Assembly: GCA_963921825.1 (NCBI GenBank)
Contig: OY997591.1
Coordinates: 36,849,825 to 36,913,824, forward strand
Reading direction: 5' to 3'
Length of the DNA: 64,000 nt
From: Erodium maritimum
Lineage: Eukaryota; Streptophyta; Magnoliopsida; Geraniales; Geraniaceae
In this document: one piece after another, positions 2,917-51,867 of the stretch
Numbering within the stretch: the first letter of the stretch is position 1
Layout of the letters: the number at the start of each line of letters is the position of its first letter
Program-made: the position numbers and the translations under genes
The notes under the pieces: generated by a model
What the model was told of the DNA's origin: nothing
Database searches by the model: none
Seen by the model: only the letters and a program-made list of their open reading frames with translations

Positions 2917-4574
2917 TGTTGGGTCTCGATGGAGGGTATGAACACATACTTGCAGCGGAAATAACTCGAGACCATGTCATAGAACACTACCAAATATTAG
3001 ATACACAAGAGAATAAAAAATATGGATGTTTCCTTACCAACTAGTTCAAGAAAATGAAGAGAACACCAAAGAAACGATGATCGGCTTGAGTCTCCAAGAC
3101 GCCTACGTATCCAATTGGAATCAAAGCCACATAGTTCTTCTTTAGATGACTCAAGAACACAACAAGAGGGAGGAAAAATGCCAAACCCGAAATTGTAGGG
3201 TGAGAGGGAGAGAAGTTGTGTTTTTCTTCTTGTCTTGTCTTGACTTAAACCATCAACAACCATCAAGGACAAGTAAGGTGTGAAGCATGGTGTGAAGTAA
3301 GACAAGTATGGTGCTAAGTATGGAAAGACAAGATGGGTTAGGTGGTGAGTCACCAACACCTTAATCCTTGTCTTGCTAACTTAGTACTAATTAATCAAGA
3401 CTTGATTAATTAGTTCCTTGGGCCTTGGTTGCATGGGCCTTTCATGGGCCTCTTGGAATATGGCCCATGACCATTCCCAACGAGGTCCCGTGACGTGCTC
3501 ATCGCCTCCAAGCCTTCCATACCGGAAATGTCCAACATTATCCGACGCGATCAATCCCAAGACTCCAAGCCTTGTCTTGATCCGTAATGTCCTATTCACT
3601 TACGGGCACATGACCCAAAACCCTGTTTTGGTCATGTCCCGAGACAACTCTCTTTTGGTCATTCTCCATAACTGTGTCAATGAGTTTCATCCTTCGGTGT
3701 GACCCTTAGGTTTATGCATGTCGATAGATCAACGTAAAATCCCATTTTACTTGATCCTATATAAGTGGCAACTAACGAGACTTTAGTATTTCCTGACACT
3801 ACATAGCGAATCGAACCAATCGATTCTAACCTTTCCGTCGTCCCTGTCACTATCCTTTTATCTCCGATATCCTGATTGAGATAAGACATAGAGCCGTCAT
3901 CCTTATTATTCTCAATCACTGTTCCTTGATATGTGAGATGACTGAATATATGATACCCAGTATCATGTGCATGGCCATGCTATTCTTTCAGTCACTCTCG
4001 ATCAAGCGCCCAAGAACCGATATCTTTCCCATACCTCAGTATGAGGGATAAATCCCTTAGCCGTCTTTCGTGTCACTCATGCAGCCCGTCCCCAAGCCAA
4101 TCCTGGCCGTTATGGAAGCCCTGTTACGGACAACGTTAGGCTCAGGTCAAACTTAGTTGTTGACTGCATAGTGATCACAAAGACTCATTGGTCTAAGGAT
4201 ACATGACAAGCTACAACACTGAATATGTTCATGACTCAATCTATGGCACATATTCAGGGTGGGTCGTCCAATATCATGTCCCACATGATATCTATGATCA
4301 GACTCCGGAATCCCATTCCAATGACTAACAGAACGTAAGCCATGAAGAGCCATATTTCATACTAGTCGCTTCTAGTGAAGCTTTATTGACTAGGGACCCA
4401 TCGAGTGTGATCCATCTTGATCTATGGTTCTATTCGCATGGTGGGCATAGATCAGAAATCACATCGATATATTACTCCAACACATAAGTAATATAAAGCC
4501 GTTTTAATCTTATTGCTAATGATGATATATACATTTGGATACTTATGATTGAACTACGGGCACTAAGACTAACA
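2917..4574 (-). mobile_element. Solo Copia LTR inserted in the Gypsy 5' LTR
   Basis: The sequence begins TGTTGGGTCTCGATGG and ends CTAAGACTAACA (1658 bp, TG...CA), which is the reverse complement of the LTR family that recurs at 42834, 50192 and 58800. It is flanked by the 5-bp duplication GTTCA at 2912-2916 and 4575-4579. The uninterrupted Gypsy copy (11478-11490) shows the empty site. No Copia coding sequence accompanies it, so it is a solo LTR made by LTR-LTR recombination. Confidence 0.95.
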
Positions 4575-9040: not shown

Positions 9041-11804
9041 TGTAAAGACCGCTCCGGTTTAAAAGTATCTTTATTTAATTTTTTGTTTGTTGTAAAGCGT
9101 CGTGGTTGGAAAACGGGGTCGAAATTTGGAACGAGTGCAAAATAAAAAGAAAATAAAAAAAGGGAAAAGAGCATTTGTGCTGGACTGGGCCGGTCAGAGG
9201 ACCGGGCCCAGCTCGCTGACACGGGCCAAGCCCGCACCACGCGAAGCCAGGCCCAAACCCACACGGCCCAAACCCTAACCCTGCATAGTCTTCTTCCTCG
9301 CGCAGTCGCACGCGTCCCGAGAAAAAAACACAGTCGCTCTTCCTCTCTTCTCTCTCGACCTCCTTCTCTTCCTCTTCCTCTCTCTCGCACCTGAAACCGT
9401 CTCGCCTACTCCGTATCCCTCGCCCTCGAGTACGAATCGAACGGAATCGAGTCTCGACGACAAAACCCTCTTCGCAGTTCATCTTCCCAACCTCGAACAG
9501 CGCCGGCGACGGAGGAAAGCAACACGGTTCGAGCTCCCTCTCGCCCTTTTATCTTCTTCGACCTCTCACCGCCTGAAAACCCACTGTGAGAAGCTCGAGT
9601 GGACGAGCTTCGCCGCCTGAAACACCGAGCTTCGTCGCAGCCCACAACGCCGGCTAGCGAGAGAGCTTTGCCCTCGCCAGATCTGAGAAAGAGGGGTGTT
9701 AAACCGCGCGTCTGCCACCACCATCATCGCCATGGCCACGCCGGAGCCCCGGCGCCCCTCCCGGCCAACTCTGTTCGCCCCTTCGAGCGTCCCTGACGCC
9801 GTCGACGGCGGCCGGAGCAAACCCTAGCCTCGCCGTCCTCGTCTCCAGCTCAGACCGGCCCTGACGAACATGGGCCTTGGACTAGACGGGCCTCGGCCCA
9901 GGACTCGAGCCTCGGGCCAGATCTAGGCTGGGCTTGGGCCAGGCCCAAGTCTCTGGACTAGGTTCTGACTCGGGTTCGGACCGGGTCTGGGTTGGGTTTG
10001 GAGCCGGGTCCGGGTCGGTTCTGGGTCCTGTCGGGTATGGGTTTTGGACCGGGTCGGATCCGGGTCGCATTCGGGTCTGGTTCTCGGATCCGGGTCGGAC
10101 AAATTTAATAAATTAATTAATTACTTTTAATATTTTAAAATGGATATTTAAAGGACTAATTGGACAAATCAAAGGACTTTTGGACTGTACCGGGACTGAT
10201 TGGAAACTTTACCTGTTGACCTCAGATTTGGACTTCGCCCGAGAAGACTGGAGTTAGGCCCGGACGTCAACAGCTAGGAGACGTAGCTGTTGTGATCATC
10301 TTGAGGTAGGGAACGTAGTGAATACCGGTTTAATTACGGAAAGTTACTAGCATGCATGATAAGGGAATAATAATAAACGGAAAGGTCCTAGTTGGCATAT
10401 AGGACGTGATTCACTAGAATAGCCGCTTTCGGTTATTAAATAACCGGACGAGTCATAGTAACATGTAGGATGTGATTCACTAGAATACATGTTTTCAATA
10501 CTTGGGAAATTGTCGTGCTGGTAGAATGGTCATGTCGAGCCTTAGGGTTGCGTGCTGATTGAGATGCATGATGCGTGTTATACCCGCTGTGTGAGAGTCT
10601 AAATAAGATTATACTCGGTGAAGCATGTTGTGACTGTGTGTGGGAAAGTGTGCCGTGTTTTCAGATGAGGTGATTCTTTGGTTGTGATATGATCGGGTGA
10701 GAGATAGACCGATTGTGTGTTATGGTGAGTTGGTCAGTTGGTATACCGATGTCAACTATAACATTGTGATGCGTGTTATACTTTTGATGTGTGTTCCAAG
10801 AGGAGGCGTAACCTGTGCGATGCCTCCACCGAGGGATAGTTCTGGTGCTTGTTATTGAGGCCAAGGATGGCGTGATGATACCCCGATTCTCCGTGACGGG
10901 AAGGTGTACGACCGAGGTATGTGCCGGTCCAGTATGCGTGAGGCCCTGATTCTACGTGACAGGAAGACGTCCGACTGAGGGATTTCCGGTCTGGGATGTT
11001 ACCCCGATTCTACGTAACGGGAAGATGTCGGGACTGAGGATTCGTGTTCCGGTACGACATAAATGGACATGCTGTGATAGTCGGAGATGTTTGAAATGGT
11101 TGTACTAAGTTATGTGTGGTTCTGTTGTGTGTGTTGTGCGTGCTGATTGGCTTTGTGCGTTGTTTTAAGTGCGATTATGGTCTTGTGAGAGTGTTTGGTG
11201 ACTCTAGGTGCTATTATACCTGATTTATGTGTTGTCGTGCGAGTTCGCACGTGTGTTCGGTTGCGAGATAACCGTGGGCGTTGTCCACTGAGAATTGTTA
11301 GGTGATGAGTGTCAAGAGCAAAGTTGAGAAGAGTGTATGTGTTCGGTTCATTGCTAGTTTGATTTACGGGTTGTGCCTGAGTGAAGGTCAAGCGTTGTCT
11401 TGGAGTAATTGTTTAATTTGACTTTTAATTTTTATGCTTACTAGTATGCCCTAATTGGACGGTTACTCGTGGTAGTGAACTGATGGTCATAACCTTAACT
11501 ACTTTTCCTACTGAGCGAAAGCTCACCCCCTTTCCTTGTTGTGTTTCAGGCCTTGAGCGTGATTTGTACTAGTTGGATGCTCGATGGTTTGGAGCTAACG
11601 AGGGTCCTAGGCTAGCTTGTCTAGAGACGTACTGTGTTTTTGAATTAAACTTTAACTCTGGATTTAAGAGCTGTTGAATCTTTTATCGGATTGTGGTGAC
11701 AATTTATTATAACTTTAAACCTTATTTCATTTTAAGTTGTTTTAATTATTATCGTTTTAAGTTCACGTCTCGAGTCCGGTCAAAACCGGATTTGGGGCGT
11801 GACA
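9041..11804 (+). mobile_element. Gypsy 3' LTR (2764 bp)
   Basis: It starts TGTAAAGACC directly after the polypurine tract and ends GGGGCGTGACA, so it is a canonical TG...CA LTR. It matches 514-4903 apart from the nested LTR there. The many short ORFs in it are not conserved as proteins between the two copies. A target duplication cannot be tested because the 5' LTR has lost its outer end. Confidence 0.9.
9971..10099 (+). repeat. GGG-rich tract in the Gypsy 3' LTR
   Basis: This is the counterpart of 1414-1523. It has GGG runs spaced by 2-9 bases and keeps its G-run spacing despite base changes between the LTR copies. Confidence 0.6.
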
Positions 11805-14527: not shown

Positions 14528-17500
14528 ATGTGGAAGCTGAGAATAGCAGAAAGAGGAAATGATCCGAATGTGTACAGCACCAACAACTTTGTTGGGAGGC
14601 AGATATGGGAGTTTGATCCGGAAGCCGGCACTCCTGAAGATCGGGCAGAGGTCGAGCAGGCTCGCCGTCATTTCTTTGACAATCGTTTCAAGGTGAAGAC
14701 CAACTCCGACCTCCTTTGGCGGATGCAGGTATCTACTTTTATCTTCACTAATAACTAGGATTTTGTTTGTTTAGATTTTGCTTCTTTCATTGCTGGGTCC
14801 CCAAGTAATTATTGTCTACTTCAGTGTGTTTAGATTTTGCTTGTTGTTTTTCAATCCACTTCAATATCCAGTTATCACTTCGTAATCTATGTGACCTTTA
14901 GTTTTCACTTCCTAGCTCAAAAATTTTGTTGTTTACAATTCATAACCCGGAGGTGACACGTTATTACAAAAAGTAACTGTTTTTTATAGGTTAGAAATTG
15001 TTAAAAAAAACATACCACATTTAGGTTAAGAATCGTAAAAAAAAACATTTTTTAGCTAGGAAGTGATAACTGAAGATCACATAGGTAAGGAAGTGATAAC
15101 GAAAGATCAGATGAGTTAGGAATCGACGTTATCCCTAAATTTGACATATATATACACTTTCTGTAGTACATCTTTTTTCTATACTTACTTTTTCTGGATT
15201 TTGAAGCTATAATATGTACCAATTTGTTAGTTATTTTATCTTCCTCGTCTTCAATATACTGCTTATTAATGCATACAAAAGGAGTGATCAGTGGCGAACC
15301 TATTAAGGTCCCTGGGGCACGTGCCCCCCCTGAAATTTAGAAGATTTTTTTTTATATTTCTTACCGTATAATATAATATAATATTTTATTCAAAGTTCCC
15401 CACATCAGATTAGAATAAATGATTTGTTACCTAGTAATTTTTTTTTTCGGTCCATAAAACTCTATTTTTCTTATAATTTTTTGGACTTGTTTAATATATA
15501 AATTTTTGGTTTTTATTATATAAAATTTTTACTTTCATAATTTTTTGTATTTTATCTTATTTAAGTTTCTTAATTTGTTAAAATCTTAATTGAAGTTATT
15601 TTTATTTTAAAATTCAAGATTATTATTAATTTAAAAGTTGTGAATTTAGTTATTGTTTGAAATTTTAGAGTATAAAATTATAATATAATAGTAAGATAAT
15701 TCAAAAAAGATCTTGAGTCCACAATATTATTTGATAAGAAGAAAAAGAAATCGAGTAAAAGACCAATGAATATCGCATAGGTCGAAAAATATATATTTGA
15801 TTGTGTTGACAATATTTTCAAAATATAAATATTTGTCGTCATATTTTTTAATAAGTACTAAATTTTATCTTTTTGTACGATACTAACATTTTAATGTCAT
15901 ATGTTGTTATTTTAACGTCAATTTTTACCGCTACAAAAAAAATATCGATACCCCCTCATCGAGAAATATAATTCCACCAGTGGGAGTGATGATATATAGT
16001 AATAAAATACAGATACAGAAAGTCAACTCAAAGATTTGTTCGAGTACCAAGAAGGTTGTGATCGAAGTTTTTTAATTATCATACACATTTTTTTTAAATA
16101 TGTGACCGACCGGCTTCCATGCACATGCGTGCGTACTTCATTTCAAAAATATTAGTTGTGTTTTTTTATTAATGTAGTAGCAATGCTTTAAACGTTGTGA
16201 TATAGTGAATTTCATACCTGGGTGTATATCTTGTCTGATTTTCAGTTTCTGAAAGAGAAAAAGTTCGAACAAAAAATATCTAGAGTGACAATTGGAGTTG
16301 ACGAAGACATAACGTACGAACAAGCAACGACGGCAATGCGAAGAGCAGCTCATTATTACTCGGCTTTGCAAGCCAGTGATGGCCACTGGCCTGCCGAGCA
16401 AGCTGGTTGTTTGTTTTTCATGCCTCCCCTGGTCAGCACTCGATAATTACTTTAATCAATATACACCACTCTTATTAATTAATTATTATTACAAGGTTTT
16501 AGTAATTGATTGATGATTAATACGTTTTTGTTACAGCTCATTTGTCTCTACATTACTGGACATCTCAACACGATTGTTACGCCAGAACATAATAAGGAAA
16601 TCTTACGATATATTTACTGTCATCAGGTATATTTTTTTTGAGTAATATGAGGTAATATTATAAATTAAACGTGTTTTTACAAATGACTAACACAAAAAAA
16701 TGAAATTGAAATTAACAATAGAACATAAAATAAAGTCGCTATAAATAACAATTACACGGGTAAGTTTTTACAATCGATTCAATACAATAACAATACATTA
16801 ATGTTGTAATTATGTTTTCAATATTATTATATTGATTGAGTTTTATCATTTGTCATATACCATTTAACATTTTGGGAATTAAAATTTCAATTTGAGTATG
16901 TCAGAAAGAACTCTCGAGCAAAGCTTAAATTTTAGAATTGCACACTTGTATCTTTAAGATGGGAAAAGTGAGTGATATTATTTTTTGGGTAACCTCAAAA
17001 ACATACTTTTGAACGACTTTTGTTAGTACAAATATGTTATGAAGACTTTTTTTTCTTTCTAAAACATGTTTATACCTTTCGTTTATTACCAAAAAATAGC
17101 GACTTATGTTTATTTTTTTTTCCATTACCTTGGACAGAAAAAGAACATGTGATCGGCACATGGTCTTTATATTTATCATAAAAACCGAAAAAATTCCAAT
17201 TTCTCTTATTTAAATAACATTCGGAAAAAAATGAACACTGTGTATGACAATTGAACATGTGATTGACAGAATGAGGACGGTGGATGGGGTATACACATAG
17301 CGGGGCACAGCTCGATGTTCTGTACGGTTCTTAGCTACATCGCCATGCGAATACTCGGACAAGGAGTGGAGGGCGGCGAGGACAATGCATGTGCGAGAGG
17401 GCGGCAATGGATACTTGATCACGGCGGTGCCACCTCCATCCCTTCGTGGGGCAAGTTGTGGCTGTCCATCTTAGGTGTGTTGGACTGGTCGTGCAGCCAC

Positions 17501-19816
17501 CCGATGCCCCCTGAGTTCTGGCTCCTCCCCGACTTCATTCCTCTCCACCCCGACCAGATGCTATGCTACTGCCGCGTCACCTATAAGGCCATGTCCTATC
17601 TTTATGGTAAGAGATTCGTGGGTCCCATCACCCCTCTCGTCCTCCAGCTCCGGGACGAGCTCCTCCTCCAGCCCTACCACTCCATCAATTGGAAGAGCTT
17701 CCGCCACGTGTGCGCCAAAGAGGACTTGTACTACCCGCGCGGCATGGTGCAACACTTGATGTGGGACACGTTGTACACGTGCACGGAGCCGCTCCTCACC
17801 CGGTGGCCCCTGAACAAGTTGGTTCGGGCTCGGGCGCTGGAGAACCTGGCAAAGCACGTGCACTACGAGGACGAGAACAGCCGGTACATAACGATCGGGT
17901 GCGTGGAGAAGCCGCTATTCATGTTGTGTTGTTGGGCGGAGGACCCCACCAGCGAGTACGTGAAGAAGCACGTGGCTCGAGTAGCCGACTACCTGTGGGT
18001 CGGGGAGGACGGGATGAAGATGCAGAGCTTCGGGAGCCAGAGCTGGGATGCCTCGTTCGCTCTCCAAGCCATGCTCGCCACCAACCTGGTGCAGTCCCAA
18101 GACAAGGAGGACATGGTCGTCATGGAGAGGACGCTCCAGAGAGGTCATTTCTTCCTCAAGGAGTCCCAGGTCAAGAACGAGCTTCCCGGTGATTTTAGGA
18201 GCATGTACCGTCACACTACCAAAGGCTCATGGACTTTCTCCGACCAAGATCATGGATGGGCTGTTTCTGATTGCACTGCTGAAGCCTTAACGGTACCATC
18301 TTACTATTCTATATCAAACGATCATATAAAAGTTGCGAGTTTTATTACAAATCAGAATCAACGTTTAAATGGAGTGCATCAGGCACAGAGCCTGGCCACT
18401 GAAGAACATGCATAAAACGAGCTTTTCTGACTAGCTAGTGGCAAGCCTTGTTCGCAGTTCTTTTTACAAATAACTACGATCATATACACTTTATTACCAC
18501 TCATAATTAATATAAACTTACTTACTCTTTTTTTGCAGTGTTGCCTGATTTTATCAACAATGCCACCACATATTGTTGGCCACCATTTGAAATCTGACCG
18601 CTTATATGATGCTGTCAATGTTATACTTTATTTACAGGTGACACATTATTCGTTTGCATATTCATTCGACTGCTTACATATATACAAGGCTAGCTAGTTA
18701 TATTTATTTGTATTTAATGTAGAGTAAAAACGGAGGATTACCAGCCTGGGAGCCAGCAGGAACCCAAAAATGGATGGAAGTGAGTTTCCAATAATTAATT
18801 ATGAATTGTATTTAGTCTACATTATGAATACCTGATCGATGGATGATCAGATCCTTAATCCAACGGAGTTTCTTGCGGATCTTGTGGTGGAGACGGAATA
18901 TGTTGAGTGCACATCATCTGCAATTCATGCTCTAGTTTTGTTCAACAAGATGTACCCGGAACACAGAAACAAGGAAATTCAAAACTCAATTGGAAATGCT
19001 ACGCGCTACATTGAGAGCATACAAAATCCGGATGGATCATGGTATGTATATCTTCGTCAAAACTACAAACTATTAATCTGGGCCTTTAGATCGTGGAATT
19101 AAACGCTCGGATTTAATGTATATCTTTGTAATTAATGCATATCTTGTAATTGATTGAATTTCGGTGGGCAGACTGAGATTAGTTTTAGGTTGAATTTCGG
19201 TGGGCAGACTGAGATTAGTTTTAGGTTTGTACCTGAAAATAGGTTTGTATTTGATATAGATGAAATTGTTGTATCGCAGGTTTGGAAATTGGGGGATATG
19301 CTTCACGTACGGAACATGGTTCGCGATAAGAGGGTTGACGATAGCTGGAAAGACATACAACAAGTGTGAAGCGGTGCGTAGAGGTGTTGATTTTTTGCTC
19401 CGCATACAAATAGACAATGGTGGTTGGGGAGAGAGTTATCGCTCTTCTCCTGAGAAACAGTACGTGCCTCTTGAAGACAACAGATCCAATTTGGTACAGA
19501 CGTCATGGGCTCTTCTGGCTCTCATTCTTTCTGGACAGGCTAAAAGAGACCCCGAACCTATTCATCGGGGCATCAGACTTGTAATTAATTCACAGATGGA
19601 AAATGGGGATTATCCTCAAGAGGTAAACACCATTCTTCTTCTTCATTAATATATGGAATTGATATTGGACTGATTTTGTGCATGCAGGATGTATTAGGGA
19701 CGTTCATGAAGAACTGTATGTTACACTATGCAGCTTACAATAACATCTTTCCTTTATGGGCTCTAGCGGAATATCGTAACCGCGTTTTGTCGTCTTCCTC
19801 CCAAACCTTTTTCTAA
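14528..19816 (+). CDS. Oxidosqualene cyclase, lupeol-synthase-like (9 coding exons, 772 aa)
   Basis: Exons: 14528-14728, 16246-16431, 16537-16626, 17270-18292, 18539-18637, 18723-18779, 18851-19041, 19280-19622, 19688-19816. All introns are GT-AG and the frame is unbroken (772 codons plus TAA; family about 760). The start [13 protein letters not shown] is the standard OSC N-terminus. Visible features are QW-type repeats ([11 protein letters not shown] about 109-119, QNEDGGWG 159-166, [19 protein letters not shown]), MLCYCR at 256-261, and the catalytic DCTAE at 493-497, whose Asp protonates the epoxide. The enzyme cyclises 2,3-oxidosqualene at the ER membrane. Family knowledge links MLCYCR to lupeol synthases and MWCYCR to beta-amyrin synthases, so lupeol is the best product guess, but mixed products are common. 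Oddities are the large fused exon 4, its GC-rich patch, and a stretch about 8 residues longer than usual near 433-450. OSC identity is very secure; product is moderate. Confidence 0.93.
15289..15982. mobile_element. Non-autonomous hAT-type transposon in OSC intron 1
   Basis: A perfect 8-bp target duplication GGAGTGAT occurs at 15281-15288 and 15983-15990. The element starts CAGTGGCGAACC and ends TTCCACCAGTG; the ends are imperfect inverted repeats. The subterminal GGGGCACGTGCCCCCCC block is common in plant hAT-like elements. The 694-bp interior is AT-rich with no transposase, so it relies on an enzyme supplied elsewhere. The 8-bp duplication and CA-start ends point to the hAT superfamily. Confidence 0.85.
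16098..16180 (+). repeat. Imperfect copy of a promoter-region segment at the end of intron 1
   Basis: CACATGCGTGCGTACTTCAT...TATTAGTTGTGTTT here matches CACATGCGTACTTCATTT...TACTAGTTGTGTTAG at about 14130-14177, with a 4-bp insertion and scattered changes. The two lie about 2 kb apart, either side of exon 1. Confidence 0.5.
17270..18292 (+). other. Fused 1023-bp exon 4 of the OSC gene
   Basis: It encodes residues 160-500 (NEDGGWG to DCTAEALT) without an intron. Plant OSC genes usually have about 17-18 exons, with several introns in this part. The upstream and downstream introns are kept. Codons 17696-17914 end in G or C in 67 of 73 cases (92%), while exon 5 has 10 of 33 (30%). The GC-rich character fades after about 18200, before the exon ends. 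Its antisense and alternate frames are open for up to 167 codons because of this composition; they are not genes. Confidence 0.9.
19154..19225 (+). repeat. Perfect 2 x 36-bp tandem duplication in OSC intron 7
   Basis: The unit starting TTGAATTTCGGTGGGCAGAC occurs at 19154-19189 and is repeated exactly at 19190-19225, upstream of the exon 8 acceptor at 19279. It is probably a recent slippage or repair event. Confidence 0.95.
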
Positions 19817-20664: not shown

Positions 20665-21068
20665 TGTTATAAAACGATAGGCAATAAAACGAAATAGAGA
20701 TCAAAACCAAAAACGGAGAACACAACGATATAACGTGGAAAACCCCTCCAAACCACGGAGAGGAAAAAACCACGGGCGCCAACCAGCAAAACTTCACTAT
20801 AGGGAGAATGTTTACACAACGCCGGGGATTTACACTGATTCAACTTATCCCTCATGGCAGCTTACATGTGGTATTTATAGGAGTGGTGTAGAGATACTTC
20901 ATACAAAATAGGGAAATAAAAATCTCTACACAATTAAGACCCAGTTTTGGAAACAGGGCCCAAATTCCCTAAATTGATTACTTGCTAATCACGCCAAGAC
21001 AATTCCCTAAATTTTGTTGCTTGGTAACCAAGCCACAAAATAGCTTGAATTTGGATCAACTTTTAACA
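20665..21068 (-). mobile_element. 3' LTR of the Tnt1-like Copia element
   Basis: 404 bp, TG...CA, nearly identical to 25227-25630. The sequence to its right (AACTCCACCTTG, minus strand CAAGGTGGAGTT) is the probable polypurine tract. Confidence 0.95.
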
Positions 21069-21167
21069 AACTCCACCTTGAGACAAATTCCTCCTTGTAG
21101 CATGAAACGGTAGACATCTCCCTGAGCGAACAAAGAAAAAACTTTCGGCGCCAAACAGCCACTAGGG

Positions 21168-24100
21168 CTAAACAGTTATACCAACTAAGCTTGAGCAAAG
21201 CTCAAACTTAGCAACAGGAACTGGCTTTGTCATCATATCAGCAGGATTATCATGAGTACTTATCTTGCAGATCTTTAGATTACCTTGAGCAACAATATCT
21301 CGAACAAAATGATATTTGACATCAATGTGCTTTGTTCTCTCATGAAACATTTGATCCTTAGTAAGGTAGATCGCACTTTGACTTTCACAAAACAGATTAA
21401 TGCAAGAATTATCTCCACAAAGCTCTGCATACAAACCTTTCAACCAAACTGATTCTTTACAAGCTTCAGCAATAGCCATGTATTCAGCCTCAGTAGTAGA
21501 TTGAGCAACAACTGGTTGTAGTGTTGCCCTCCAACTCACAGCACATCCACCAACAGTAAATACATAACCTGTGAGGGACCGCCTCTTATCCAAATCAGCA
21601 GCATAGTCTGAATCCACGTAGCCGGCGAGTCCCTCGTTCATCTTGCCAAATTTCAGACAAGCATTGGATGTTCCACGTAAGTACCTGAAAATCCACTGAA
21701 CAACTTTCCAATGTTCTTTACCAGGATTAGCCATATATCGACTAACCAAACTCATAGCATATGATAAATCAGGTCGAGAAAAAACCATGGCATACATCAA
21801 AGAACCAACAGCACTAGAATATGGAACCTTTGACATGTACTCAAAATCCTCATCAGAACTAGGACATTGCAGTGCTGACAATTTAAAGTGAGGAGCAATA
21901 GGAGTACTAACAGGCTTTGCATCATGCATATTAAAACGATGAAGAACTTTCTTAATGTAACTCTGCTGACTAAGGAATAAGACTTTAGAATTTCCGTCCC
22001 TTGTAATTTCCATACCTAGTATTTTCTTAGCAGCTCCAAGATCCTTCATCTCAAACTCACTACTTAGCTGTGCCTTCAAAGTAGTGATCTCTTTCTTGCT
22101 CTTGGCAACAATCAACATATCATCAACATATAACAACAGGTATATCGGTGATCCATTAACAAATTTAATATAAACGCAGCTATCATACTGAGATCTCTTA
22201 AAACCATGTGCAAGCATAAATGAATCAAACCTCTTATACCACTGCCTTGGGGACTGTTTAAGACCATAAAGTGACCTCTTTAACTTGCAAACGAGGTCCT
22301 CCTTACCAGGCACAAGGAAACCTTCAGGTTGGTCCATGTATATCTCCTCCTCTAATTCTCCATGCAGAAAAGCAGTCTTCACATCTAACTGCTCAAGTTC
22401 AAGATCATGCATAGCCACAATACCAAAGAGTGCACGAATAGAACTATGCTTCACAACCGGAGAGAATACATCATTATAATCAATACCTGGAATCTGGCTG
22501 AAACCTTTTGCTACTAACCTTGCCTTAAAACTTGGAGGCTCATTAGGAGACAAACCTTCCTTTCTTTTGAATATCCACTTGCAGCGGACGACCTTCTTTT
22601 GCTTTGTCAAGCGCACAACATCCCATGTGCCATTTTTGTCAAGCAATTTCATCTCCTCGTGCATGGCAGAAATCCACTTCTCACGGTCAACGAATGCAAT
22701 CGCTTCAGCATATGCAGCAGGTTCACGATCATGCTCCACCTGTTCAGCACAACTCAAAGCATAATGAACAACGTTACATTGTTCAATTAAACGAGGGCGA
22801 GGACCTTTGTTTCTCCTCGGTCTATCAGCAACAATGGAATTATTTGTTTGCTGCAAAACAGGTGGTGTAAGCTGAACGTCAATGTCATCATTTTCATTAT
22901 TTTCATCAACCTCATTTACTTTTTCGCCCAGGTGCTCCACCTGCACGCTTATCCTCTGTTGCTCATCATCAGAAAAATTAGTAACATCAAGAACATCAGA
23001 GGCATCTATAAAGGAACTATCATTGAACATGACAGCCTCATTAAAAACAACATTTCTGCTCAGCAAAATTCTTTTAGTTTCAGGATTCCATAACTTATAT
23101 GCCTTTACTCCTGAGCCATGACCAAGAAACACACACTTGACAGCTCTAGGCTCTAACTTTCCATTATCAACATGTGCATAAGCTGTGCAACAAAAAACTC
23201 TCAATAGTGAGTAATCAGCAGGTGAACCAGACCATACCTCAATGGGAGTTTTCTTATCAAGTGAAATGCTTGGAGACCTGTTTATTAAGTAGCAGGCGGT
23301 GGAGGCTGCTTCAGCCCAAAAACGTCTGCTCATACGAGCATTAGAAAAGCATGCACCGAGCCTTAGAGATGATGGTTCGGTTCATGCGCTCAGCCACACC
23401 ATTCTGTTGAGGCGTGGACGGGATGGTGTGGTGCCTTACAATGCCTTCATTGCTACAATAGTTGTCAAAATCATTTAAACAAAACTCCATGCCATTGTCA
23501 GTACGAAGCACTTTTACCTTCTTCTCGGTTTGCTTCTCCACCATAACTCTCCACTTCTTAAAAGTATCAAACACATCAGATTTATGTTTTAGAAAATAAG
23601 GCCACACTTTTCTAGAGTAATCATCAATAATAGTAAGCATGTAATTTGCACCACCAAGAGAAGTTTTTCGGGAAGGACCCCAAACATCAGCATGATCATA
23701 ATCTAATATCCCTTTAGTGGTATGAACGGAAGAATTGAATTTAACTTTCTTGTGCTTACCAAAAATGCAGTGCTCACAAAACTCCAACTTACTCATGTTG
23801 CAGCCATCAAGTAAATCTCTCTTGATCAACTCTGCCATGCCTTGTTCACTCATATGTCCAAGGCGCTTGTGCCACAAATTAGTTTTACTAGGTTCATCAG
23901 AAATAACAGCAGCAGTAGCAGAACCATTTAAAGTGCTACCTCTAAGAACATATAATCTTGCAGAGTTCATATCACCTATCATGTGAACGAGAGAGCCTTT
24001 TGATACCTTTAGAATTTTCTGTGAGCCGGAGTACTTGTACCCTTCATCGTCAAGAGTGCTGAGAGAGATGAGGTTTCTCGCCATGGTTGGTACGTGTCTC

Positions 24101-25182
24101 ACGTCTGTCAATGTGAGTATCATGCCGTCATGCATCTTGAACTTAACGGAGCCTATGCCCACAATCTCACGTGGGTTGTCATCTCCCATACGCACCACAT
24201 CTCCACTCTGTAAAGACTTATAAGAACTGAACCAGTCTTTGTTACAACAGATATGAAATGAACAGGCAGTATCAAGAATCCATTCATCATAAGCAGAAAC
24301 ACATCCAGCAAACACAACTAAGCAATCACTATCAGAATTATCGTTGGAAACAACGGAGGCCTTACCATCACCATCAGAATTGTTTTTCGGTTTGTACGTA
24401 CCGTTTCTTTTCTCCTTATTCTGAAGCTTATAACAATCTTCAATGGTGTGATTGGTTTTCTTACAATACTTGCAGAACTTGTCACCTCCTTTGGACTTAG
24501 AATGGTCTCTCCCGTTATTGCTCTTATTTTTATTTCCATAGTTGTTGTTCCTCTGCTCGGTCCTCCCACGTACCTGCAGAGCTTCTCCCTTGGAGGATGA
24601 TGATCCTTCTCCCTGTACCATAAGTTTCATCTTTTCCCTCTGTTGAAGGGCCTCATAAACTTCCGGAAGAGTTAGTTCATCGCGGCTCAATAATATGGTA
24701 TCTCGGAAATTTGCAAAAGAACTAGGCAATGAACATAAGAGTAGTAGACCTAGATCTTCATCATCATACTTTACCTCCATGGACTGCAAATCAGAAACGA
24801 TCTCCTTAAAGACCGCTAGGTGATCGAGTAGAGAACCACCATCTTGCAGCTTGTGTGTGACCAACTTCATCTTCACGTGCAACTTACTGGTCAGATCCTT
24901 GGACATGCAGATCGATTCCAGTTTGAGCCAAAGCGCTGCTGCAGTTTTCTCCAGCAGTACTTCCTGCAAAATATTATTTGATAGATGAAGATGAATCAGA
25001 GATAAAGCTTTACGATCCTTACGCTTCTCCTCATCGGTCCACGTCTTCGGATCCTTCTTGTTGAATCCATCTAGCGCATAATCAAGGTCAGGATGAGCTA
25101 GAACGGCCCGCATCTTTACTTGCCACAGAGAAAATCGTGTGGTGTAGTCCAACAACGGTAGATCGAATTTCAATGATGCCAT
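21168..25182 (-). pseudogene. Copia gag-pol polyprotein with one frameshift
   Basis: The start is the ATG at 25182 (MASLKFDLPLLDYTTRFSLW); an upstream in-frame extension runs into the LTR and is not used. In order: gag, CCHC knuckle CKYCKKTNHTIEDC (about residues 237-250), protease WILDTACSFH, integrase zinc region and DDE core ([28 protein letters not shown]), reverse transcriptase with YVDD, and RNase H with [11 protein letters not shown], ending at 21168. The frame breaks once near 23336-23346, inside the integrase just after the [12 protein letters not shown] block, where a short T run appears one base longer than the frame needs. Everything else is open. It encodes the virus-like particle and the enzymes for cDNA synthesis and integration. 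Confidence 0.93.
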
Positions 25183-25211
25183 ATCGTCAGAAAACCTAGA
25201 TTGAACAACCT

Positions 25212-25224
25212 GGCTCTGATACCA
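25212..25224 (-). other. Primer-binding site of the Tnt1-like element
   Basis: The minus strand reads TGGTATCAGAGCC two bases inside the 5' LTR, complementary to the 3' end of plant initiator methionine tRNA, the usual Copia primer. Confidence 0.9.
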
Positions 25225-25226
25225 CT

Positions 25227-25630
25227 TGTTATAAAACGATAGGCAATAAAACGAAATAGAGATCAAAACCAAAAACGGAGAACACAATGATATAACGTGG
25301 AAAACCCCTCCAAACAACGGAGAGGAAAAAACCACGGGCGCCAACCAGCAAAACTTCACTATAGGGAGAATGTTTACACAACGCCGGGGATTTACACTGA
25401 TTCAACTTATCCCTCATGGCAGCTTACAGGTGGTATTTATAGGAGTGGTGTAGAGATACTTCATACAAAATAGGGAAATAAAAATCTCCACACAATTAAG
25501 ACCCAGCTTTGGAAACAGGGCCCAAATTCCCTAAATTGATTACTTGCTAATCACGCCAAGACAATTCCCTAAATTTGGTTGCTTGGTAACCAAGCCACAA
25601 AATAGCTTGAATTTGGATCAACTTTTAACA
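25227..25630 (-). mobile_element. 5' LTR of the Tnt1-like Copia element
   Basis: 404 bp, TG...CA, followed on the right by the ATAAA duplication. It carries the element promoter. Confidence 0.95.
25434..25441 (-). promoter_or_regulatory. TATA box in the Copia 5' LTR
   Basis: The minus strand reads TATAAATA in the context CTCCTATAAATACC. The same box is kept in the other LTR near 20872. It is the likely core promoter for the genomic transcript. Confidence 0.6.
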
Positions 25631-25665: not shown

Positions 25666-27350
25666 TTTTTTTTTATCAGCAAAGCAATATTATAAATCTC
25701 CCTTTTTTCAAAGATTGAAAAAAGAGGACAAAAGTCTCTAGCTACAGAGACAATACAAGGAAGAAAATGCGAAGAAACTTTTAGAACAACAAGGATACCA
25801 AAAGTAGGTAGATTTTTGAAACCTAACCCAATTTGCAAAGAAAAGGGTAGTAAAGTGAAACTTAACCCCTCAATAACAGAGGAAATTCGACTGAAATTTT
25901 CAGCTCTGAAGAGCATCAAGGATGAGTGATCTCTATCAGCTGCTATTACTTGAACCAGATAATTGAGCAGCCTATGGAGTATGATGAATGACCCAATTTG
26001 AAGAAAAAAACAGTTGTATGAGATGTATGATAGATCCAAACAAAGAAAATGCTTAGCCTTTGTGTTTAGGAGTAGCAGAAGTGTAGAAAGCCTGCTGCAA
26101 CTGATGATCTGCCTTTGTAGTTGGTATCAACCCTTACAAAATCTGCTGAAAAGTTGAGCAGAAGAAGGGCCCCTAGAATGACTGTGATCAAGTAATGTGC
26201 TGAGATGCTGAGCAAAAGAGGAGCCCCAGGAATGACTGTGATCAAAGAAAAGAGACTTGAGAAACAAGACAAATGAAGGACTGCATAAGATGAAGACCTG
26301 CACAAAACCAACAAAAGAGCAGAGGCCGAGAAGGCCAACAAACTAAAGCCTAAAAAAGAAACTACCCACTCTCAGAAGAAGAGAAAGAACAAAGACCAAC
26401 AAAAAACCCACACTCAGCAGAACAAGGCACACACACCACCCAACTCACAAAAGGAACCTAGGTCTCACCTCTCCAATCCACCCAAGCCGGCCCAAAACCC
26501 CACCCAAAACCCCCAGAAGTAAGCCAAGACAAGAAAGATAAACCAAACCCCTCAATGAATTGAGAGGCACTGAAGAGGATCAAGCACCCAAAGATGGAAA
26601 GAAAAATGCTTTGCTGGGGAGAAAGCAGACCATTCCCAAGAGAAACTTGTATTCTGAACCTTAGCAAAGATCACTGTAGAATTGAACTCCACATTGTTAA
26701 AAACACTGTCATTTCTAGCAAGCCATATCAACCAACAAGTTAACTTTAGAATGTTTCCCCAAGCTTTTCTGAAGGGTCTTTTGAATAGATAAAACCAGGA
26801 ACCAAAGAGACCTTTTATGTCTCTAGATATAACACACTGAATTCCCAACCAAGAAAAAATTGATCCCCATAGCTCCCAGGAATGTCTACAATGAATTAGG
26901 ATATGAGAAACATCTTCAAAATCCCAATGACAAGAGGGGCAGATCAAGTCATCTAATGCAAATTGCATGCCCCTACTTTCAAGGAAACATCTTGAAGGAA
27001 TTGCCTCTAGACATGCTAGCCAGCAAAAGGCAGTGATCTTGGGGGCCAAACCAGGAGACCAAAGGTGTTTTGTCCAGTAAGAAAAAGCTGATCCTTGAGG
27101 AGCAAGCAAGGAGTACATCCTCTTAACAGTGAAGCCTTTTTCATCATGGCACCAAGACAATTGATCATCCCTCTCAGTAGGATAGACCCCTAAAAGGATA
27201 GAGCAGATCAAACCCCATTCTTCCTCTTCCCAACCTCTTGGAGATCTCCTCAAATTCAAGTCCCATTTTCCATCAGACCATAGATCTTCTATGAGAGCAG
27301 ATTTGGATCCTGATTCAAAGCTGAAAGAGATAGCAACATCATCATTAAGT
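25666..27350 (-). mobile_element. 5'-truncated minus-strand LINE fragment
   Basis: The fragment begins on the left with a T run (25666-25674, the poly-A tail on the other strand) preceded by TTTGCTGAT-like tail sequence, then a long 3' UTR. Coding sequence at 26552-27345 (minus) matches the zinc-binding C-terminus of LINE ORF2: KHLWSPGLAPKITAFCWLA, CPSCHWDFEDVSHILIHC and LTCWLIWLARNDSVFNN. The frame is open for 235 codons and upstream to about 27345, so this copy is younger than its host LINE. No matching target duplication was found either side. Confidence 0.8.
26552..27259 (-). pseudogene. LINE ORF2 C-terminal fragment (zf-RVT)
   Basis: A 235-codon open frame with the zinc-binding pattern CPSCHWDFEDVSHILIHCRHSWELW and the IWLARNDSVFNN block, typical of the end of plant L1-type ORF2. 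Reverse transcriptase and endonuclease are absent because the copy is 5'-truncated. It ends in a normal stop after SIH. Confidence 0.75.
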
Positions 27351-27351
27351 T

Positions 27352-28395
27352 ACTTGGCAACAAAGTGGTGCTAATTTATTTCCAGATGTTTTGGTGGAGT
27401 AGGAAGCTCTGAAAGAGGAGGATGCTTGGTTAAGGACTTGGTTGACTATCATCAAAGATAAAGCACACCTTCGTAAGAAAGGAGGGAAGTTCTCCTGGAT
27501 AGCCATATATGGGATCCCCATTTTGGGCTGGTGTCCTCAAACTATTGAACCTTTCTCTACAGAGTTGGGGACAGTAGTTTGTGTACATCCTTCCACTATG
27601 GCTGGAGTCTCCTTTGATGTTAATTATGTCTTGCTACACTCTGAAGATTATTTAAAGCTTTACAAGGAATCTGGGTTATAATTGGAAGAACAAGAATTTA
27701 ATGTGATGGCCTGCTCTGTTGACATCTTAGTGGTTCCAATCTGTGACATTCCCCCTCTTTATGCTTCTGATTCTTCTACTTCTGAGAATACTAGTTCTGA
27801 AAATTCTTATTCTAAAGAATTTAATGATACACTTACTGGAGAGGAAGCCAGAGAATTAAATGTTGGTACATGAGAAGATCAGTTCAGAGAATTAATGGAG
27901 GTGGCTGGAGAAAAAATTATTAAGGAGAGGGAGGATCTTCTGAACTGTGTGGTCCCAGATCAGCTTGGTCTATAGAGTCTAGAGATTTCTGCTTTGGACT
28001 CCCCTTCACTGAAACAAAATTGTTTGCAGGAGAAGAGTTGTCCTCCTTCCCCTACAAAAACTCCTTCGATTCTCACACTCACCTTCAAAGAGGCCTTGAT
28101 TGTTCCTGATACCCTAGGTGAGGAAAATTCAATTCAAATTACAATTGTTCAGACAACCTTGGGGGAGGAACCAATGAAAAATAGCTTAGCTGGTGAAGAT
28201 GGGACTATCTTGGGGGTACAAGGATAAAAGGGCTCATTGGAAGTTGGATGCATTAATGAGATAGTCATTCCAGCCCTTTTTACTATTGTTTTGGGGTCAC
28301 AAAATCTGATAGCAACCCATTTCTCTCCGATTTTGGAGGGAGATCTTAATTCAAACCAAAATGGTGTAAGTTCTAATTGTTTAACCACTCCCTAA
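27352..28395 (+). pseudogene. LINE ORF1 C-terminal part
   Basis: Plus-strand frames continue ORF1 of the host LINE: EALKEEDAWLRTWLTIIKDKAHLRKKGGKFSWI... is followed by VHPSTMAGVSFDVNYVLLHSEDYLK, then a Ser/Glu-rich low-complexity tail. In-frame stops (about 27681, 27871 and 28227) break it. Confidence 0.6.
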
Positions 28396-28760
28396 CTTAG
28401 CAAAGGCCCCACATTCAAGAAAAGGACAAGTTCAGTAACTGTAGCATATAATACACGATCTAAGACAAATGTCACTCTCTACTGAAAATCCTCTTTCTGC
28501 TACAAAGGTTGGGACAAAAAATTCTCAGAGTTTTAAGTTAGGGGGAGCTGGTACTTGGGATTACTGCAAACCTTTGGGTCTCAAAGCCTACATTGCTGAT
28601 GATTTGGTAGCAGAAAAATTTGATAACTTGGATGTTGAAGTCAACCAAACATTGGAACTTGATGCTAACAGTGAAGATGAATACTATGATCTGGAAGAGA
28701 TTGAAAATGGGCAATTGAACCTCTCCACTCCTACAATTCCCACTCAGATATTGTCCTCAC

Positions 28761-29466
28761 CATGAGGATTCTATCATGGAACATGAGGGGGGCTTTTTCT
28801 AGACAAAAGAGAAGAGCCCTCAGAAACGCGTGTGCCAAGCAACAACTATCAATCGTACTAATTCAAGAATCTAAGCTATCTGTTATTCTAGATTATTTTC
28901 TTTCTGGTTGTGGTTTCTCTTAGGCTTGGGAGGCTATCTTTATTCCTTCTGTGGGTAAGGTTGGTGGGGTTATTACTTTGTGGAATAAGCATTTATTTCA
29001 GATGCATTCTAACTTCATTGATGAACATGTATTATTTTGGGCTGGGAAATATCTACCATCTAATTTGAATTTGACTGTGGTTTATGTATATGCTTCTTGC
29101 TCAGTTTCACTTAGAACTCATTTGTGGTCTGAGATGAATGTGAAAATTATCAATTTATATAGCAATTATTTGGTGCCTGGAGACTTCAATGCTATTTTAT
29201 CTCCAGAAGACAAAACTGGTCCTAGATTTTCTTCACCCAGTTTGAGAGAATTCAGAAATTTTCTAGACAACTTTGGACCGGTAGATCTGCAATTAAATGG
29301 GGGCAATTACACTTGGTTTGGATCAGGAACAAAGGCTTCTAGAATTGATAGATTTTTGGTGACACCTCTCTTCCTGACTACTTTCAACAATTTATCTCAT
29401 ACTTGTTTACCCAGGTGTTTATCTGATCACAAACCTATCCTGCTCAGAAGCATCTTGGTGGACTAG
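28761..29466 (+). pseudogene. LINE ORF2 endonuclease domain
   Basis: The start MRILSWNMRGAFSRQKRRAL is the usual beginning of plant L1 ORF2. Blocks of the APE-type endonuclease follow: LIQESK (catalytic Glu), GDFNAILSPEDK, DNFGPVDLQLNGGNYTW, SRIDRFLV and the terminal LSDHKPI. One stop at 28921 and another near 29464 break the frame. The domain would nick target DNA. Confidence 0.85.
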
Positions 29467-30063
29467 GGTCCAAGACCTTTTAAGTTCATAAATGCCTGGA
29501 TCAGTACCCACAATTTTTTTATGACTCCAGAAACTGTCTGGAACACAATTCAAGTTTGAGGCTCTCCAGCTTACAGACTTTGGTTCAAATTAAAAACTCT
29601 GAGGAATTTGTTTAGGGGTTGGAACATCAATACTTTTGGTTGGTTAGACAAAGATATTGAATCTATCAAATTAGAGATCAAGGGTGTGGATGATCTTTTA
29701 GATATCACGGAGCTAAGTACACAAGAGATTTGTCATAGATCATTCCTTGGTGAAAAAATTATCCAAAAACTTAAACTACAAGCCAAACTTTGGTGTCAAA
29801 AGGCCAAACATACATGGTCCAAGGAGGGGGGCAGATGTACAAAATGTTTCCATCAAGTGGCCAATTATAATCAATCTAGGAAGAAGATTGAACAAATTGT
29901 AGAGGGAGGTAAAAATTTTACAAAGCCTGGGGAGATCAAATTGGTGGCAAAGCAACACTTTTTAGAAGATTTCTTTGTGAGTCTGATGTGTGTATTGATC
30001 TATCATCACTCTCCTTCAGTTCCCTCAAGCTCTTGGATTAGAATTACCTTTCTCAGAAGATGA

Positions 30064-31150
30064 GGTTTGGAGAGGTATTTAGTCTTGCACTGGAGAAAAG
30101 GAACTTGGTCCTGACGGCTTTGCTATGAGATTTTATCAACATTGTTCGGATTTCATTAAGCCTGATATTATGAGCTTTACACAACATTTTTTCTTGGGGG
30201 GTTCACTAGGTAAAGGAATCTATTCTTCCTTCATAACTCTCATCCCCAAAAGTGGCTTTCCTCAAACCCTTCATGAATACAGACCTATCAGTCTCATCAG
30301 TAGCACTTACAAGATCTTCTCCACGGTGTTGCCTGCAAGATTAAAAATTGTGATGAATATCTTGGAACATGATGTACAATCAGGTTTTATTACTGGTAGA
30401 CAAATATTGGATGGAATTTGAATAGCTTCAAAATTAATACATTCCATCAAATTGTCTGGTCAAGAAGTCATTGATTTCAAGGTGCACTTTGAGAAAGCAT
30501 ATGATCATCCATTAGAAGGATGTACTAAATATTTTACAAATTATGGGTTTTGGGTCCATATGGATTTCTTGGATCAAAGAGTGCATCAAAGCTTGGTCCT
30601 CTATACTTATAAATTGTTCTCCATCAGATGATTTTCCTTTATAAAGAGGCTTGAGACAAGGATGCTCCCTATCTCCCTTGCTCTTTGCTTTAATTGCTGA
30701 GAGTCTGCATCAACTCATGATCAAAGGCATTGCCTCAAGAATGTTCTCTGGGATAAGGTGTAATAATCAGGGTCCAGAAATCTCCCACCTACAATTTGCT
30801 GATGATACATTGATTATCATTGAAGCTGGTATTCAACAGGCCAGCAATCTGAAACACACTCTTAACTGTCTACAAAAGGCTATTGGACTAAAGATTAATT
30901 TTCAGAAATCAAAAGTAGTAGTACTAAACTCTTCTTCAATGAGTGTTGAAGATGTTACTAGGATTTGGGGTTGCACTGCTGTGGAACTTCCATTTGATTA
31001 CTTAGGTTTTCAGTTGGGAGCAAATCCTAGAAGGAAGAAAAATTTGGAACTTGTGATCAACAAACTCAAAAAGAAGCTTGGACTGTGGCAAGCTAAATCC
31101 AAATCTTTGGGGGGGGGGGGGGTAGGATCACTCTTATTAAATACTCACTA
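30064..31150 (+). pseudogene. LINE ORF2 reverse transcriptase domain
   Basis: Blocks present in order are GPDGFAMRFYQ, ITLIPKSG, YRPISLISSTYKI, QSGFITGRQILDGI, RQGCSLSPLLFALIAESL and the catalytic LQFADDTLII, then KINFQKSK and FDYLGFQLG. Frameshifts and stops occur at 30421 and between 30480 and 30650. A run of 14 G residues at 31109-31122 ends the good frame. Confidence 0.85.
31109..31122 (+). repeat. Run of 14 G in LINE ORF2
   Basis: A homopolymer in the reverse-transcriptase to C-terminal linker. A frame change occurs here, consistent with slippage. Confidence 0.9.
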
Positions 31151-50191: not shown

Positions 50192-51867
50192 TGTTAGTCT
50201 TAGTGCCCGTAGTTCAATCATAAATGTCCAAATGTATATATCATCATTAGCAATAAGATTAAAGCGGCTTTCTATTACTTATGTGTTGGAGTAATATATC
50301 GATGTGATTTCTGATCTATGCCCACCATGCGAATAGAACCATAGATCGAGATGGATCACACTCGATGGGTCCCTAGTCAATAAAGCTTCACTAGAAGCGA
50401 CTAGTATGAAAGATGGCTCTTCATGGCTTACGTTCTGTTAGTCATTGGAATGGGATTCCGGAGTCTGATCATAGATATCATGTGGGACATGATATTGGAC
50501 GACCCGCCCTGAATATGTGCCATAGATTGAGTCATTAACATATTCAGTGTCGTAGCTTGTCATGTATCCTTAGACCAAGGAGTCTTTGTGATCACTATGC
50601 AGTCAACAACTAAGTTTGACCTGAGCCTAACGTTGTCCGTAACAGGGCTTCCATAACGGCCAGGATTGGCTTGGGGACGGGTTGCATGAGTGACACGAAA
50701 GACGGCTAAGGGATTTATCCCTCATACTGAGGTATGGGAAAGATATCGGTTCTCGGCCGCTTGATCGAGAGTGACTGAAAGAATAGCATGGCCATGCACA
50801 TGATACTAGGTATCATATATTCAGTCATCTCACATATCAAGGAACAGTGATTGAGAATAATAAGGATGACGGCTCTATGCCTTATCTCAATCAGGATATC
50901 GGAGATAAAAGGATAATGACAGGGACGACGGAAAGGTTAGAATCGATTGGTTCGATTCGCTATGTAGTGTCAGGCAATACTAAAGTCTCGTTAGTTGCCA
51001 CTTATATAGGATCAAGTAAAATGGGATTTGACGTTGATCTATCGACATGCATAGACCTAAGGGTCACACCGAAGGATGAAACTCATTGACACATTTATGG
51101 AGAATGGCCAAAAGAGAGTTGTCTCGGGACATGACCAAAACTGGGTTTTGGGTCATGTGCCCGTAAGTGAATAGGACATTACGGATCAAGACAAGCCTTG
51201 GAGTCTTGGGATTGATCGCGTTGGATAATGTTGGACATTTTCGGTATGGAAGGCTTTGAGGCGATGAGCACGTCACGGGACCTCGTTGGGAATGGCCATG
51301 GGCCATGTTCCAAGAGGCCCATGAAAGGCCCATGCAACCAAGGCCCATGGAACTAATTAATCAAGTCTTGATTAATTAGTACTAAGTAAGCAAGACAAGG
51401 ATTAAGGTGTTGGTGATTCACCACCTAACCCATCTTGTCTTGCCATACTTAGCACCATGCTTGTCTTACTTCACACCATGCTTCACACCTTACTTGTCCT
51501 TGATGGTTGTTGATGGTTTAAGTCATCTTTTTCCTACAACAAATCACAAGACAAGAATAGAAACACAACTTCTCTCCCTCTCACACTACAATTTCGAGTT
51601 TGGCACTTTTCCTCCCTCTTGTTGTGTTCTTGAGTCATCTAAAGAAGAACTACGTGGCTTTGATTCCAATTGGATACGTAGGCGTCTTGGAGACTCAAGC
51701 CGATCATCGTTTATTTGGTGTTCTCTTCCTTTTCTTGAACTAGTTGGTAAGGAAACATCCATATTGTTTATTCTCTTGTGTATCTAATATTTGGTAGTGT
51801 TCTATGACATGGTCTCGAGTTATTTCCGCTGCAAGTATGTGTTCATACCCTCCATCGAGACCCAACA
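50192..51867 (+). mobile_element. Solo LTR in the leader of body A (1676 bp)
   Basis: TGTTAGTCTTAGTGCCCG to ATCGAGACCCAACA, flanked by TAACG at 50187-50191 and 51868-51872. The site in body B is empty at the same place (ATAACGTGCACC at about 58635). Confidence 0.96.

Follow-up and report, generated by a model that had tools for sequence, protein, structure and literature searches.

An oxidosqualene cyclase gene of Erodium maritimum whose middle may have been overwritten by an intron-free copy

Our analysis concerns an oxidosqualene cyclase (OSC) gene in a 64,000-nucleotide stretch of Erodium maritimum DNA (assembly GCA_963921825.1, contig OY997591.1, positions 36,849,825 to 36,913,824), referred to here as the window and used as the frame for all coordinates. 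The gene is complete at 14528-19816 on the forward strand, where nine coding exons without an internal stop encode 772 amino acids; within its fourth exon, codons 210-463 form a tract that is far richer in GC at third codon positions (GC3) than the remaining gene. We propose, as a reading to which we give about an even chance, that the middle of this gene was overwritten by an intron-free copy, that is, by reverse transcriptase-mediated partial intron loss through recombination. A pasted patch of this kind accounts jointly for the missing block of introns, the retention of the introns that flank it, and a change in composition that falls inside the exon rather than at its ends.

The exon limits of the gene were derived from splice sites and reading frame. 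All eight introns are of the GT-AG type, with introns 1-3 upstream of exon 4 and introns 4-8 downstream; splice sites and frame thus bear out the first-pass annotation of this DNA, which had placed residues 160-500 in one 1023-bp exon at 17270..18292 with introns remaining around it. Through exon 4 runs an uninterrupted frame of 382 codons, which starts at 17267 and is closed by a stop codon ending at 18415. Residues 1-764 of the spliced protein align with PDB entry 8j5z (E = 0, 1183.8 bits; record name 'Terpene cyclase/mutase family member'), which we take to be a plant protein, and within exon 4 this alignment shows only two small insertions, of one and seven residues, both inside the GC3-rich tract. 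Because the frame is open and the alignment unbroken, a chance open reading frame and hidden introns are excluded on sequence grounds, and exon 4 is, by the same token, free of internal introns. The GC content of the exon is 57.8%, compared with 25-35% for the gene's eight introns.

The tract was located by a scan for the single best tract along the gene, using all codons except Met and Trp and assuming step-shaped edges. GC3 in codons 210-463 is 197/233 (0.845), compared with 0.421 elsewhere in the gene; the whole-gene scan yields a log-likelihood gain of 62.4, where the maximum among 100 permutations is 13.7. Solutions whose log-likelihood is at most two units lower than the maximum start at codons 209-218 and end at codons 461-466; setting the edges at exon 4's own splice sites gives a poorer fit (gain 41.4). 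A scan of exon 4 alone returns codons 213-463 with a gain of 21.4, a value reached by none of 200 permutations (largest 10.5). Outside the tract the exon stays GC3-poor, with 24/46 in its first 50 codons and 13/34 in its last 37, and Fisher P values for the tract against the left and right ends, computed after the edges were chosen, are 5e-6 and 3e-8. Exon junctions of plant OSC genes presumably lie around codons 221 and 459, not far from where the tract starts and ends; our argument does not draw on these positions. GC at first and second codon positions differs little between the tract and the rest of the gene, and C and G are both raised at its fourfold sites. Its GC3 level is not attained by any of the nine further window frames that were measured (0.34-0.44 in six retroelement frames, 0.57-0.63 in the remaining three). 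In Arabidopsis and rice, intron-flanked coding parts hold their GC content in a narrow, constrained and similar range (PMC4684703; this and the other papers are cited from the excerpts available). By that standard the tract is out of place in a gene interior, and its composition was probably acquired outside an intron-split gene body. The protein it encodes shows no sign of distant origin: its identity to 8j5z (65%) lies within the 52-75% of the other segments, its identity to human lanosterol synthase (LSS) is likewise within their range, and a foreign or accelerated protein was discarded as an explanation.

The same features could have been produced in two stages, with several separate genomic deletions followed by GC-biased gene conversion or codon selection that enriched the long exon. 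Coding sequence without introns generally has a higher GC content, the joint rise of C and G at fourfold sites is in keeping with such enrichment, and the two in-frame insertions could have been left behind by deletions. GC steps along Arabidopsis and rice genes have also been linked to introns (PMC4684703). Enrichment of this origin would, however, be expected across the whole exon, and both exon ends lack it; exon 8, at 343 bp, has no GC3-rich centre either (16/32, 17/43, 10/34), and each deletion would have had to preserve the frame. We consider this course of events unlikely, and a patch explains the tract better than would a drift in composition affecting the entire exon once its introns were gone. 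A composition step within one exon might also betray an artefact, in which assembly or library preparation attached foreign or cDNA-like (complementary DNA) material to the gene. The reading frame, the splice sites, the motifs and the alignment of the protein all continue unbroken across both edges, and two edges in coding register would be unexpected in a mis-join, which makes an artefact very improbable.

How unusual the exon structure is depends on what it is compared with; 'fewer introns than usual' refers here to exon counts quoted in papers, which may include non-coding exons, rather than to an alignment with a sister gene. These counts are 15 for the Maytenus friedelin synthase MiFRS, 17 for Arabidopsis lupeol synthases, and 18 for oat beta-amyrin synthase and for ten rice OSC genes (PMC6017009); apple OSCs have at least 14 exons (PMC5089662) and Rosa OSCs 14-21 (PMC9698161), while 12-18 introns are given for Momordica (PMC8745088) and 16 for Gentiana GsAS1 (PMC5022052). 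At the lower end are Artemisia OSC models with 12-26 exons (PMC12293385), one rice OSC with 10 (Inagaki 2011 as cited in PMC6017009) and GsAS2 of Gentiana straminea, a beta-amyrin synthase with no intron at all (PMC5022052). Nine coding exons are therefore low among plant OSCs, which mostly have 14 or more and typically 17-18, yet reduced structures are already in print. The first-pass annotation likewise gave a figure of about 17-18 exons; since intron-poor OSCs have been published, the exon, once described as the most distinctive feature of the gene, is less singular than was thought, low as its exon number remains.

GsAS2 offers the closest parallel in kind, as an OSC without the introns of its paralogue that is functional in yeast and for which its authors suggested retroposition; it has lost every intron, whereas the present gene keeps eight and has none in the middle only (PMC5022052). 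The 10-exon rice gene is alike in its reduced exon number, a comparison by count without intron positions (PMC6017009). No OSC intron loss confined to the middle of a gene was found in the literature searched for OSC intron loss or retroposition, a small sample that does not imply absence from print. It is possible, if somewhat unlikely, that the large exon is an inherited state of its clade, the introns having been lost long ago by whatever route and the gene being a typical representative of an OSC lineage with few introns. The existence of few-exon OSCs in rice, Gentiana and Artemisia fits this idea, as does the identity of the tract to 8j5z, which bears no mark of a young patch. Against it, the other counts in the excerpts of PMC6017009 and PMC5022052 are 15 exons or more, and the rice gene and GsAS2 are like the present gene in their reduced intron number rather than in a demonstrated common exon.

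For the overwriting of the gene by an intron-free copy, we envisage that a spliced OSC transcript was at some point reverse transcribed, and that the donor was either this cDNA or, with higher probability, a retrocopy derived from it whose silent sites had become GC-rich. A retrocopy with a history of its own is favored because the gene's own cDNA would not differ in GC3. The donor would have recombined with the resident gene through homology in exon sequence, replacing about 762 bp and removing all introns between; the host exon sequence left at either end (codons 160-209 and codons 464-500) would thereby have been fused with the patch into a single 1023-bp exon. In grasses, adjacent introns are reported to be preferentially lost, with exact deletion (PMC4256211), and GsAS2 is a functional intron-free OSC (PMC5022052). 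The present gene resembles the reverse transcriptase-mediated loss discussed for grasses in that neighboring introns are apparently absent together, the frame is kept and the gene is otherwise intron-rich; it differs in adding a compositional patch with both edges within an exon. The first-pass annotation had suggested recombination with a partial cDNA, and the long mid-gene exon in an intron-rich, in-frame gene, with the GC3-rich tract inside it, agrees with that suggestion, while the cDNA donor and the ancestral introns are still conjectural.

Relatives of the gene were sought in genome contigs, viral contigs and plasmids, leaving out phage and E. coli collections. A scan of genome contigs with exon 4 recovered no plant OSC; its 12 loci all have bacterial record titles, the closest-looking being on a contig of a Chitinophagales metagenome-assembled genome (L001:5001-5972; 39% identity to the exon-4 segment along residues 1-340 of the 341-residue query) and the other 11 showing 22-35% identity. 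The same scan of viral contigs gave no match, and the plasmid protein search found no plant OSC among 49 records, all below 60% identity, of which the 10 listed are bacterial. A bacterial origin of the tract was rejected, the best bacterial locus being 39% identical compared with 65% for 8j5z. Within the window, a tblastn search for a second OSC copy or donor returned the gene itself, all other matches having E >= 0.58.

Several points weigh against the overwriting of the gene by a patch. The tract demands a donor rich in GC, but the window shows no such sequence. GC3 is uneven both inside the tract, where the 15-codon bin 265-279 is low (8/14), and outside it, where exon 1 reaches 0.60; the bin at the tract edge (460-474) is intermediate (9/14), and the scan presupposes steps rather than slopes. 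Constraint near splice sites could hold the ends of exon 4 GC-poor. The two insertions, if they lie at old intron sites, would indicate imprecise deletion. The number of missing introns is reckoned solely from published counts, and few introns may simply be the rule in the clade to which the gene belongs, as the rice and Artemisia examples suggest. In the grass study, intron loss was not biased toward the 3' end and did not depend on exon size, and its authors note that the former is at odds with cDNA models of the simplest kind (PMC4256211).

The encoded protein has the features of a eukaryotic OSC, with both SQHop_cyclase domains (PF13249 at 131.6 bits, cut-off 26.2; PF13243 at 177.1 bits, cut-off 26.1), a DCTAE motif and near full-length homology; human LSS aligns to residues 101-760. 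The spliced frame is intact and DCTAE and MLCYCR are present, in agreement with the earlier description of a gene that stays in frame with its key motifs. DCTAE (residues 493-497) lies in exon 4 outside the GC3-rich tract. The motifs MWCHCR and MQGYNGSQ of the cycloartenol type, as listed in Table 1 of PMC4346913, are replaced by MLCYCR at residues 256-261 and MQSFGSQ at residue 410, which excludes that type; judged by these motifs, the enzyme is of the pentacyclic type. MQSFGSQ is compatible with several OSC types. The Leu of MLCYCR, in place of the Trp of MWCYCR, is the residue associated with lupeol, and pea mixed amyrin synthase shares it (PMC4346913); this residue points to lupeol-type chemistry, with that overlap in mind.

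Residues linked to product were compared with the 22 OSCs in Table 1 of PMC4346913, in its numbering. Apart from site 137, to which no position could be assigned, the sites were located manually, using the register common to both at residue 256 and the two insertions. Inside the tract, T263 (gene residue 263) occurs in 5/6 mixed-amyrin rows and 0/16 others, and G317 and P373 (gene residues 317 and 374) occur only in the EjMAS and MdMAS rows. Behind the tract, I614, T617, S677 and E715 (gene residues 622, 625, 685 and 723) equal PsMAS, OeLUS and ToLUS, 3 of the 22 rows. Running counter to a mixed-amyrin match, H354 (gene residue 355) inside the tract is the common type, and F375 and D254 there (gene residues 376 and 254) are in no row of that table. 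We therefore entertain, as a doubtful extension of the patch proposal, a natural chimeric triterpene synthase in which a GC-rich, intron-free retrocopy of mixed-amyrin type has taken the place of codons 210-463 in a lupeol/beta-amyrin-type gene. The exchange would have covered a large part of the region that determines the product, with DCTAE and the two ends of the host gene retained. The mosaic of residues concerns a handful of sites and is only a lead toward a chimeric enzyme.

Table. Coding exons of the OSC gene and the GC3-rich tract, in window coordinates.
Feature	Position	Strand	Residues or codons	Remarks	Basis
Exon 1	14528..14728	+	aa 1-67		ATG start, GT donor, homology to 8j5z
Exon 2	16246..16431	+	aa 68-129		splice sites, homology
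Exon 3	16537..16626	+	aa 130-159		splice sites, homology
Exon 4	17270..18292	+	aa 160-500	1023 bp, no introns	open frame, splice sites, homology
GC3-rich tract	17420..18181	+	codons 210-463	inside exon 4	change-point scan with permutations
Exon 5	18539..18637	+	aa 501-533		splice sites, homology
Exon 6	18723..18779	+	aa 534-552		splice sites, homology
Exon 7	18851..19041	+	aa 553-615	plus two bases of codon 616	splice sites, homology
Exon 8	19280..19622	+	aa 616-730		splice sites, homology
Exon 9	19688..19816	+	aa 731-772	stop TAA	splice site, homology, stop codon

Intron 7 of the gene carries a 36-bp unit duplicated exactly in tandem at 19154-19225. The window is rich in retrotransposons, as judged from its genes, and since such elements are common throughout it, the presence of retroelements with reverse transcriptase near the gene is no evidence for the reverse transcription step. 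About 850 bp past the OSC stop lies a young-looking Copia long terminal repeat (LTR) retrotransposon (20665-25630, reverse strand) whose gag and pol domains lie in two frames that overlap; its LTRs of about 404 bp are 98.5% alike across 405 aligned bases, and ATAAA stands at both flanks. Beyond it are two copies of a 54-bp unit with 82% matches (26140-26245) and, at 26555-31148, remnants on both strands that resemble a long interspersed nuclear element: zf-RVT at 26555-27349 (reverse), RVT_1 at 30645-31148 (forward) and, scoring under its cut-off, an endonuclease match at 28924-29463 (forward). Two long reverse-strand frames, 355-975 and 9075-9548, have alike starts (KGERELEPCCFPP...) and appear to belong to a repeated element, and the frames at 2997-3380 (reverse) and 51386-51787 (forward) are similar to each other. 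Neither a transfer RNA nor an Rfam match reaching the gathering score was found in the window.

If the patch is real, retro-copies would edit the interiors of old genes besides making new ones, and in this case the edited region would lie in an enzyme family where its residues are linked to product. Silent-site GC could then mark further patches in intron-rich gene families.

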